64,000 nt of DNA from an uncultured Lachnospiraceae bacterium (GTDB lineage Bacteria > Bacillota > Clostridia > Lachnospirales > Lachnospiraceae). Shown one piece after another: positions 15,574-19,201 of this stretch (its first letter is position 1; every line of letters starts with the position of its first letter). The position numbers were made by a program, and so were the translations under genes. The notes under the pieces were generated by a model that searched no databases, was not told the DNA's origin, and saw only the letters and a list, made by a program, of their open reading frames with translations. The stretch lies in contig CALWQT010000010.1 in NCBI GenBank assembly GCA_944383765.1, positions 1 through 64,000 of the forward strand. The letters run 5' to 3'.

Positions 15574-16953
15574 ATGTATCAGATAGATTTTAAAAAACCC
15601 TGCCATATCCATTTTATAGGAATAGGCGGCATCAGTATGAGCGGACTGGCTGAAATATTGATGAAGGAAGGTTTTACGGTAAGTGGCTCCGATGCAAAGG
15701 AGTCGGAACTGACCAGGAATCTGGAGGCCAGTGGTGCCCAGGTAATGTATGGACAGAGGGCAGAAAATATTCAGGAAGGAACGGACGTAATAGTTTATAC
15801 AGCAGCTGTCCATGCGGATAATCCGGAATACCGGGAAGCAGAGAGACGGGGACTGCCTATATTGACCAGAGCGGAATTGCTGGGACAGATCATGAAAAAT
15901 TACAGACATTCTCTGGGTGTGGCGGGAACCCATGGAAAAACAACGACTACGTCCATGATCACAGAAATTTTACTGGCGGCGGGAGAAGACCCTACTATAT
16001 CGGTAGGAGGAATCCTCAATTCCATCGGCGGAAATATCCGGGTGGGAAAGTCCGACCTGTTTGTGACAGAAGCCTGTGAATATACCAACAGTTTTCTGGC
16101 CTTTCACCCTACTATGGAAATCATATTGAATATTGAAGAAGACCATCTGGATTTCTTTAAGGATATCCATGATATCCGCAATTCCTTCCGTGAGTTTGCA
16201 AAGCGGCTGCCGGAAGACGGATTGCTGATCATCAACAGTGAGATTGAGCAGTATCAGGAGCTGGTCAAAGGGCTGAACTGCAGGATTTTCCCATTTGGAA
16301 ACGGCCAGGGAAGCCGCCTGAAAGCGGAAGCAGTCTGCCATGACGAGCTGGCAAGGGCTTCTTTTGATGTGATTTATGATGGTGACCGGTTAGGACATAT
16401 AATCCTGGGGGTTCCAGGGGAACACAATGTTTCCAATGCGCTCTCAGCGATAGCAGCTGCCCTGGAATGGGGAATTCCATTTGAAAATATCCAGAAAGGA
16501 CTGGAGAAGTTTACAGGCACCAATCGGCGTTTTGAAAAGAAGGGAGAGATAGGGGGCGTGACGGTGATTGATGATTATGCCCACCACCCAAGCGAGATCC
16601 GCGCTACCTTGGAGGCAGCCAGGAACTATCCCCATAATAAAGTCTGGTGTGTGTTCCAGCCTCACACCTATACCAGGACAAAGGCTTTTATGGATGAATT
16701 TGCCAAGGCATTGTCTATGGCAGATGAGGTGATCCTGGCAGATATTTATGCTGCCCGGGAAACGGATACGCTGAGAGTCAGCTCCAGAGATCTGGCGGAG
16801 AAGATTGAGGAGTTGGGAACCAAGGCTGTGTATCTGCCATCATTTGATGAAATAGAAACATTTATTTTGGAAAATTGTTTACACGGTGATTTGTTGATAA
16901 CTATGGGTGCCGGAGATATTGTAAAAGTGGGAGAAAAGCTGCTGGGAGTATAG
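15574..16953 (+). CDS. murC: UDP-N-acetylmuramate--L-alanine ligase
   Basis: 459 residues, normal length for MurC. It adds the first L-Ala to UDP-MurNAc in peptidoglycan precursor synthesis, using ATP. The sequence shows the N-terminal UDP-binding HFIGIGGISMSGLAE (about 10-24), the ATP loop GTHGKTTTTSM (about 115-125), the central EACEY/EEDHLD motifs, and the C-terminal DDYAHHPSEI (about 334). The ribosome site is AAGAGGGATAAGAGGT. It is a single-gene unit with its own promoter; its terminator includes one of the DnaA boxes of the following array. Confidence 0.97.
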   Translation: MYQIDFKKPCHIHFIGIGGISMSGLAEILMKEGFTVSGSDAKESELTRNLEASGAQVMYGQRAENIQEGTDVIVYTAAVHADNPEYREAERRGLPILTRAELLGQIMKNYRHSLGVAGTHGKTTTTSMITEILLAAGEDPTISVGGILNSIGGNIRVGKSDLFVTEACEYTNSFLAFHPTMEIILNIEEDHLDFFKDIHDIRNSFREFAKRLPEDGLLIINSEIEQYQELVKGLNCRIFPFGNGQGSRLKAEAVCHDELARASFDVIYDGDRLGHIILGVPGEHNVSNALSAIAAALEWGIPFENIQKGLEKFTGTNRRFEKKGEIGGVTVIDDYAHHPSEIRATLEAARNYPHNKVWCVFQPHTYTRTKAFMDEFAKALSMADEVILADIYAARETDTLRVSSRDLAEKIEELGTKAVYLPSFDEIETFILENCLHGDLLITMGAGDIVKVGEKLLGV

Positions 16954-16971
16954 TTATCCACATTATCCACA
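16954..16971 (+). repeat. two back-to-back consensus DnaA boxes
   Basis: TTATCCACA occurs at 16954-16962 and again at 16963-16971 with no spacer, directly after the murC stop codon. This is the canonical bacterial DnaA nonamer. Confidence 0.8.
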
Positions 16972-17014
16972 TAGTTTTCAACATTTTATGTAAAGAGACT
17001 ATGTGGATTTTTTA
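16965..17014 (+). terminator. murC terminator built on a DnaA box
   Basis: ATCCACATAG (16965-16974) pairs perfectly with CTATGTGGAT (16999-17008) and is followed by a T-run. The left arm contains most of the second DnaA nonamer, so the site serves as both DNA box and RNA stem. Confidence 0.65.
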
Positions 17015-17108
17015 ATTTACATAATCAAATGTCAGTTAATTTTTAAAACCTGTAAAACAGGCAAGATTCGACAGAGCTTTCGAAAAACAGACAGGTTATG
17101 TCAACGCA

Positions 17109-17135
17109 TTATCCACGTTATCCACATTATCCACA
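17109..17135 (+). repeat. three back-to-back DnaA boxes
   Basis: TTATCCACG (17109-17117), TTATCCACA (17118-17126) and TTATCCACA (17127-17135) abut with no spacer. A weaker inverted copy, TGTGGAAAG, is at 17144-17152. The array ends about 95 bases before the dnaD-like start codon. Confidence 0.8.
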
Positions 17136-17230
17136 ATTACCTTTGTGGAAAGTTAGGGCTATTTCCTTTTTTGTTTTGATATGTTATGATGAAACAAAGT
17201 ACAGGAAAGTGGTTAAAAGGGGAGTTAACC

Positions 17231-18193
17231 GTGAAAAATCAGTTTGAAGTTCATGCCACATTGGTTGCCAATGAGTTTATTGATACGTATATGGCGTCGG
17301 CCAATGGAGAGTATGTGAAAGTATACCTATATCTGCTGCGTCATCAGAATGAGACTGTGGATCCGGTGTCCATAGCAGATGCCTTGAATCATACGGAAGC
17401 AGATGTTCGCCGTGCCGTGGCCTACTGGCAGAAAATGGGAGTGCTGCAGGCATCAGAAGAAGGAAAGGCAGAACAGGAGACGGCGGCAGCATTGCCGGGC
17501 GCGCAGGACGACGAGAAAGAGAAGAAGCAGGAAAAGCGCAGGAATTATGGGAAGGCGGATCTGGAAAAGCTTCAGAAGGATGGGGAGTTCAGCCAGCTCC
17601 TTTATGTGGCGGGACAGTATATGGGACGTCTGCTGAAACCGCAGGATGCGGATATGCTGGCATATCTTTATGATGGGCTTCATATGCCCTGTGATGTGAT
17701 CGAATATCTGATTGAGTATTGTGTGCAGAATGGACACAGCAGTATCCGTTATATGGAAAAGGTGGCTTTGAACTGGCATGAAAGAGGAATTACCAGGCTG
17801 GCAGATGCGAAAGCATTTGCAGAGCGTTTCAGCGAAGATGCGTTTGCGGTGATGAAAGCGTTTGGAATCAATGACCGCCGCCCGGGAAATATGGAATGGG
17901 AGGCCATCGAACGCTGGTACCGGAACTGGGGCTTTACCAGGCAGATGGTAGTGGAAGCCTGCAACCGTACCATGCAGGCTATACATAAGCCCAGTTTCCA
18001 GTACGCAGACCGGATCCTTCAGGAATGGTACCGGAATGGAATCCGTACCCTGGAGGCGGCAGCAGAGGCAGATGGTAAGAGAAAGAAAACGGGGCAGAGG
18101 CAGGAGACGCCCAGGCGTTCCAATAATCAGTTCCGTAATTTTGAAGAGCGTGAAATCGATTATGATGCCATGATGTTGGAACAGTGGCAGTAA
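17231..18193 (+). CDS. dnaD: DnaD-domain replication protein
   Basis: 320 residues. The N-terminal part (about 1-75) has the winged-helix DnaD_N pattern (FIDTYMASANGEYVKVYLY, VSIADALNHTEADVRRAVAYW). After a charged linker come one or two DnaB_2/DnaD helical domains with the YRNWGF and YADRILQEWYRNG motifs (about 230-270). Such proteins help load the replicative helicase at the origin and at restart sites. A GTG start at 17231 is preferred because GGGGAG lies seven bases upstream; an ATG at 17186 has no ribosome site. It is paired with the DnaC-like loader 12 bases downstream and preceded by the DnaA-box array. Confidence 0.88.
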   Translation: MKNQFEVHATLVANEFIDTYMASANGEYVKVYLYLLRHQNETVDPVSIADALNHTEADVRRAVAYWQKMGVLQASEEGKAEQETAAALPGAQDDEKEKKQEKRRNYGKADLEKLQKDGEFSQLLYVAGQYMGRLLKPQDADMLAYLYDGLHMPCDVIEYLIEYCVQNGHSSIRYMEKVALNWHERGITRLADAKAFAERFSEDAFAVMKAFGINDRRPGNMEWEAIERWYRNWGFTRQMVVEACNRTMQAIHKPSFQYADRILQEWYRNGIRTLEAAAEADGKRKKTGQRQETPRRSNNQFRNFEEREIDYDAMMLEQWQ

Positions 18194-18205: not shown

Positions 18206-19201
18206 ATGGCACTCAGCAATTCCCAGTATGATGCCATCATCAGGGAATACGGAAGGCAGCAGCTCCTGAATAAGCATGAGCAGGATAAGCGGGTGGAAGA
18301 AATTTACCGGTTGATCCCTGCGGTCAGGGAACTGGATGATGCGATCAGCACAACAGCCGTGCAGTATGCAAAAAAAATGCTGGGAGGTGATCAGGACGCA
18401 CTGAACAGAATGAAGGAAGAACTGGCTGACCTGCGGGAGCAGAAAAAAATCCTGCTTCAGTCCAGGGGGTACAGGGCTGATTATATGGAAATGCAGTACC
18501 GGTGTCCGGACTGCCGGGATACGGGATATGTTAATGGAAAAAAATGCCATTGCTTCCGTCAGGCTCAGATGCGACTGCTGTATGCCCAGTCCAATATTGA
18601 GGAAGTGGTGAAAAGGGAGAATTTCCAGACCTTTTCTCTGGAGTACTATGATGATGAGCAGGTTATTCCGGCAATCGGAAAAACTGCCCGTGCCCATATC
18701 CGTCAGGTAGAGGAAGCATGCCGACGGTTTGTAGAAGAATTCGGGGAAAAGAAAGGAAGCCTGCTGCTGACCGGGAATACAGGGGTGGGGAAAACATTTC
18801 TTGCCAACTGTATTGCCAAGGAACTGATAGACCGGTATTTTTCTGTGATCTATCTGTCTGCCAGTGACCTGTTTGATATTTTTTCCAAGACCAAATTTGA
18901 ATATCAGGCAGAAGAAGAGATGAAAGATATGTACGGGTTTATTCTGGACTGCGATTTGCTGATCATCGACGATCTGGGAACGGAGCTGAATAACAGCTTT
19001 ACCTCGTCACAGCTTTTCTACTGCCTGAACGAAAGGCTGAACAGGAAAAAGGGGACTGTGATCTCCACAAATCTGTCCCTGAATGCCCTGCGTGATAATT
19101 ACACGGAACGGGTTACTTCCAGGATTATGAGTTATTATCAGATCCTTCCCGTATATGGCGACGATATCAGGCTGAAAAAACGGCGGGGAAGCAGGCAATG
19201 A
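18206..19201 (+). CDS. dnaC: DnaC/DnaI-like helicase loader ATPase
   Basis: 331 residues. A coiled N-terminal region (about 15-85) is followed by a zinc-binding CPDCRDTGY...CHC cluster (about 99-115), then an AAA+ domain with Walker A GNTGVGKTFLANC (about 191-203), Walker B LLIIDDLGTE (about 253-262) and sensor STNLS. It should load the replicative DNA helicase, working with DnaD. AGGAGGGAGAAAT precedes the ATG. It is named here by the common annotation; in Bacillus the counterpart is DnaI. Confidence 0.9.
   Translation: MALSNSQYDAIIREYGRQQLLNKHEQDKRVEEIYRLIPAVRELDDAISTTAVQYAKKMLGGDQDALNRMKEELADLREQKKILLQSRGYRADYMEMQYRCPDCRDTGYVNGKKCHCFRQAQMRLLYAQSNIEEVVKRENFQTFSLEYYDDEQVIPAIGKTARAHIRQVEEACRRFVEEFGEKKGSLLLTGNTGVGKTFLANCIAKELIDRYFSVIYLSASDLFDIFSKTKFEYQAEEEMKDMYGFILDCDLLIIDDLGTELNNSFTSSQLFYCLNERLNRKKGTVISTNLSLNALRDNYTERVTSRIMSYYQILPVYGDDIRLKKRRGSRQ

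Follow-up and report, generated by a model that had tools for sequence, protein, structure and literature searches.

The window analysed is a 64,000-nucleotide stretch of a contig from an uncultured Lachnospiraceae bacterium, in which an array of DnaA boxes lies between murC and dnaD. The genes around the array were identified with NCBIfam and Pfam. The upstream gene, murC (15574-16953, plus strand), scores over the cut-off of TIGR01082, and dnaD (17231-18193, plus strand) matches TIGR01446 and PF07261. A dnaC/dnaI-like helicase-loader ATPase gene follows (18206-19201, plus strand); its product scores over the cut-off of the ATP-binding protein model NF005304 and matches the DnaC and DnaI models below their cut-offs. 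The likely start of dnaD is the GTG at 17231, not the ATG at 17186 of the open reading frame list. The GTG agrees with the nearest relatives, and the ATG overlaps the predicted -10 element described below.

The boxes form two plus-strand groups with no spacing inside either group. Group A comprises two exact matches, TTATCCACA TTATCCACA (16954-16962 and 16963-16971), which are kept in relatives; the first directly abuts the murC stop codon. Group B comprises TTATCCACG TTATCCACA TTATCCACA (17109-17117, 17118-17126 and 17127-17135). A sequence-only reading had described this 2 + 3 packing of four exact TTATCCACA and one TTATCCACG in the murC-dnaD gap; its coordinates are confirmed, and by shuffling the boxes are not accounted for by chance. 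The window holds five exact boxes against 0.58 expected, a count reached in 0 of 100 shuffles. Six sites with at most one mismatch fall in the 460 bp upstream of dnaD, against 0.19 expected, the sixth being located on the minus strand within murC codons (16892-16900), and none of 100 shuffles of this region contained a zero-spaced pair. Genome-wide, TTATCCACA occurs 66 times versus eight for the reversed pattern. The genome has two further pairs of closely placed exact boxes (L058 and L059); both lie within long coding frames and were ascribed to chance. Group A also has a weak third box, TTTTCAACA (16975-16983, plus strand), which follows after a 3-bp gap; only in L036 and relatives like it does this box have a single mismatch. 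The two weaker inverted copies that had also been noted (17002-17010 and 17144-17152) are present, each two positions off the consensus. The first forms the 3´ side of the murC terminator stem, and the second, on the minus strand, corresponds in place to an exact minus-strand box in L033-L035.

The intrinsic terminator of murC (16965-17013, plus strand) overlaps group A. Box A2 forms its 5´ arm and the inverted copy at 17002 its 3´ arm, and the stable hairpin (-18.6 kcal/mol, z -5.9) is followed by a T-run, as expected of an intrinsic terminator; a terminator scanner with a loop limit of 8 did not list it. A terminator-like 3´ arm with a T-run is kept in 54 of the 68 loci having a box pair. 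The double use of box A2 would suit the explanation that the boxes are kept solely as the stem of this terminator, which we consider very improbable: box A1 and group B are left unexplained, and the boxes persist where the terminator is lost, as partly seen in loci without a recognised terminator such as L133 and L135, which retain both groups. The sequence TTTACATAA directly after the terminator (17014-17024), a putative binding site, is conserved in relatives L033-L053, and an inverted partner precedes group B in some species.

Conservation was assessed in relatives sampled through DnaD peptides, blind to the boxes, which gave 22 loci including the window; L054, a 22nd peptide hit, was excluded because its match spans 25 residues only. 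Upstream of dnaD, every one of the 22 loci carries two or more sites with no more than one mismatch; a zero-spaced pair is present in 19, with L047, L052 and L053 lacking one under the same mismatch rule. A DnaD profile matched 139 of 148 genomes of the class, from which 30 loci were examined, four in the family (one being the source genome) and 26 outside it. No zero-spaced pair was found at dnaD in these 26 outside loci, the densest of which (L238) has three scattered sites. Because boxes occur at 22 of 22 in-family loci and a zero-spaced pair at 0 of 26 outside, the array appears to be a feature of Lachnospiraceae. The comparison across the family that the earlier reading had called for found the array kept. 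In L047, boxes before dnaD are kept though a murC match is absent from the 3 kb upstream. In L125 (genome G030), a transporter-like gene (89-1636 relative to the array) separates the array from dnaD, and the array stays beside murC; a phased promoter was not found at that locus.

Downstream of group B, an extended -10 element, TGTTATGAT (17182-17190, plus strand), is predicted, its hexamer beginning 49 bp past the last box, together with a weak -35. The -35 is weak across loci, averaging 3.5 of 6 matches and reaching five or more in 9 of 68. Consensus boxes lie beside the predicted promoter of the gene, as at DnaA-regulated promoters. The position of the boxes relative to this promoter was measured at 72 dnaD loci, of which 47 had been picked for the exact zero-gap 18-mer and 24 by DnaD alone, in addition to the window; kinship links the loci, and L169 and L218 represent a single genome. 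Of the 72, 54 showed both box groups together with an extended -10 of 7 or more matches out of 8, and 18 fell short. Between the end of the last zero-spaced pair and the -10 lie 39 bp, 48-50 bp (13 loci), 56-60 bp (9), 67-70 bp (22), 79 bp (6), 94 bp, 101 bp or 157 bp. These distances cluster at steps of one helical turn, with R = 0.82 at a period of 10.0 bp (n = 54) and p = 0.034 in a test on distinct distances, under a last-pair rule that was adopted only after the loci had been inspected. When any box with at most one mismatch is counted, R drops to 0.64 (n = 69) and the distinct distances give p = 0.065. In controls on the same loci (n = 48 each), the start codon is not phased with the last box pair (R = 0.33) or with the -10 (R = 0.29), so box position is conserved relative to the promoter, and much of the worry that kinship alone makes the distance classes is answered. 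The turn class changes at least 15 times on the MurC tree, and nearest-pair (sister) changes of 34, -24 and -78 bp fit whole turns poorly. Groups A and B are likewise phased with each other (R = 0.67, best near 11 bp; distinct distances p = 0.002 versus jitter).

Taken with its conservation across the family, the phasing supports the earlier suggestion that DnaA may control transcription of its loading partners. We give a probability of roughly 0.64 to the reading that the array is the DnaA-controlled promoter region of the dnaD-dnaC operon. Each group would be bound by DnaA as a cooperative oligomer, and the two groups would come together on the same side of the helix. Group B, from roughly -50 to -110, would then contact RNA polymerase in the manner of a class I activator. 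Direct contact between DnaA and RNA polymerase fits the promoter phasing, the location of the boxes upstream of a weak -35 and the extended -10. The terminator may shield the array from murC transcription. Through such a promoter DnaA would govern the amounts of DnaD and of the helicase loader, the proteins next to act after it at the origin. B. subtilis DnaD binds DnaA and inhibits its cooperative DNA binding (PMC5295017), and DnaA-driven expression of dnaD could therefore close a negative loop.

The sign of this control is a matter of weight. Since the -35 is weak, activation of the dnaD promoter appears likelier than repression, by about two to one. That DnaA represses dnaD, as it does its own gene, is a rather unlikely alternative that nevertheless keeps some weight: several species are reported to have a DnaA that represses its own gene (PMC8203912), and a repression loop could arise from two phased groups, yet every box lies upstream of the -35, itself weak.

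A different account, which we regard as unlikely, takes the array as an oriC-proximal DnaA-titration cluster similar to those of B. subtilis, with a place before dnaD that has no regulatory meaning. The locus is oriC-proximal in all five relatives in which the distance was measurable, being separated from dnaA by about 4-14% of the genome, five others having dnaA and the locus on different contigs; proximity is known from these relatives, the window contig not being joined to dnaA. The distance from dnaA to the loader gene or array is about 287 kb of 6.9 Mb in G046, 518 kb of 3.8 Mb in G085, about 238 kb of 2.8 Mb in G035, 136 kb of 2.6 Mb in G005 and, if the main contig is circular, about 257 kb of 3.7 Mb in G102. 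A second zero-spaced element of the family, described below, has changing neighbours, as a titration site could. Titration, however, does not require the boxes to keep a set helical phase to a promoter, and such a phase is found for the -10 and absent for the start codon. Because of its proximity to oriC in the five relatives, the array may still serve as the secondary or titration locus that the sequence-only reading had offered as an option.

The origin-like element offered beside it did not hold. The search for dnaA and dnaN placed them on another contig, with a box cluster upstream of dnaA and dnaN downstream. GC skew is above zero throughout the window and does not change sign at the array (17 kb). 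As the dnaA-dnaN locus has its own boxes elsewhere and the skew keeps its sign, the array is not the main origin, and that interpretation was rejected. The dense array does adjoin AT-rich DNA, as might an additional replication origin or a reserve site for unwinding. Such a role is extremely improbable given the unchanged skew, the separate dnaA-dnaN locus with its own boxes and the phasing of the array with a promoter.

The preferred reading, DnaA control of the dnaD-dnaC promoter, has partial parallels in known systems. At the E. coli nrdAB, mioC, purH and polA promoters, paired boxes lie upstream of genes for which DnaA acts as a transcription factor (PMC8203912, PMC11317965). The pairs at DnaA-regulated promoters of E. 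coli are 2-3 bp apart (PMC11317965), whereas here the gap is 0 and the two groups lie 78-189 bp apart. The oriC-proximal clusters of B. subtilis (Okumura 2012, via PMC5295017) are also DnaA-box clusters outside the origin; dnaD is not named in the account of the strongest DnaA regions given in PMC4447404, whereas in the present family the cluster keeps its place at dnaD and a helical phase to the dnaD promoter. In Caulobacter, DnaA boxes are predicted before the helicase gene dnaB as part of the DnaA regulon (PMC8203912), but the gene and the phylum differ, and the passage concerned describes no such array. E. coli datA and DARS are likewise non-origin regions of DnaA boxes; these alter the nucleotide state of DnaA (PMC4585315). 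A limited literature search (titles and opening abstract text) returned nothing on DnaA control of dnaD in Clostridia, nor on DnaA boxes in Lachnospiraceae, tandem DnaA boxes or nrdAB box spacing. If true, the arrangement gives a major family of gut bacteria a small circuit, open to experiment, that links DnaA to the helicase-loader genes, and it bears on how Gram-positive bacteria match the amounts of these loading partners to the level of DnaA.

The zero spacing had been noted as unusual for DnaA boxes, which is right and extends to the family. The exact zero-gap 18-mer occurs at 124 places in 69 of 120 family genomes, and its reversed control at none. The same genomes contain 4, 26, 18 and 4 exact pairs separated by 1, 2, 3 and 4 bp, respectively; the zero-gap pair is thus the commonest exact close pair in Lachnospiraceae (124 versus 26 at 2 bp and 18 at 3 bp). 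E. coli DnaA binds box pairs 2 or 3 bp apart, and one extra base in the 3-bp gap lowers binding (PMC11317965), so that zero-gap pairs fall outside the E. coli rule; with a gap of 0, the boxes do not form double DnaA boxes of the E. coli type, and their geometry is not predicted by that spacing rule. The dnaD region is probably a DnaA-controlled promoter with unusual box geometry, kept family-wide. Among 90 loci fetched around the 18-mer, 46 lie at murC-dnaD, 25 at hpf, 15 beside other neighbours and 2 at dnaA, and 2 are unplaced; the 15 mostly share the element layout of the hpf loci.

In the source genome, a second zero-spaced array is located outside the window between hpf and secA (L055, 2437-2560; G000:C18). 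In many Lachnospiraceae this element has boxes at -53, -12, 0 and +9. A box 52-54 bp before the tandem was found in 32 of 40 family loci, the box at -12 is usually degenerate, and TTTTGT follows the tandem by 50-53 bp in 26 of the 28 well-matching loci among the 40. Its neighbours vary and include NlpC/P60-like, hpf, secA, DUF1858-like and trmB-like genes among others, several of these names being our own reading of the sequences. Of 18 tandem loci outside Lachnospiraceae, 11 have a box 42-54 bp upstream. At about 70-100 bp past the tandem, a Spo0A-like core is present in 15 of the 25 genomes that encode full-length Spo0A versus 2 of the 15 that do not (Fisher p = 0.007, kinship ignored); the core was noticed first and then tested on the same loci. 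Clear phasing of the second element with a promoter downstream of it was not seen (R = 0.38, n = 32), and when 20 of its loci were searched against Rfam for a small RNA, the only hits were tRNAs.

Together the two arrangements allow a broader proposal, which we hold as tentative and on balance doubtful. Zero-spaced tandem boxes may be a separate DnaA geometry for regulation, not for origin opening, and Lachnospiraceae may keep at least two such devices: the promoter-phased array at dnaD-dnaC, and a portable -53/-12/0/+9 element with a fixed TTTTGT about 51 bp on and a Spo0A-like core in many Spo0A lineages. Through these devices, helicase loading and the decision to grow or to sporulate would both be coupled to the level of DnaA.

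An RluA-like coding gene of the source genome (L056, 2848-3115; G000:C3) contains eight internal DnaA-box-like sites; as a third conserved cluster it was rejected, being common to just 1 of 29 other loci examined (L186). The motif TTCGACA is found near both arrays, about 80 bp after the L055 tandem and, in the window, at 17067-17073 on the minus strand, where we tentatively take it to be a Spo0A-box-like core. In L113, L083 and L145, GAAC-N4-GTTT, a putative LexA-box-like sequence, lies about 40-50 bp after the tandem of the second element, beside TTTTGT.
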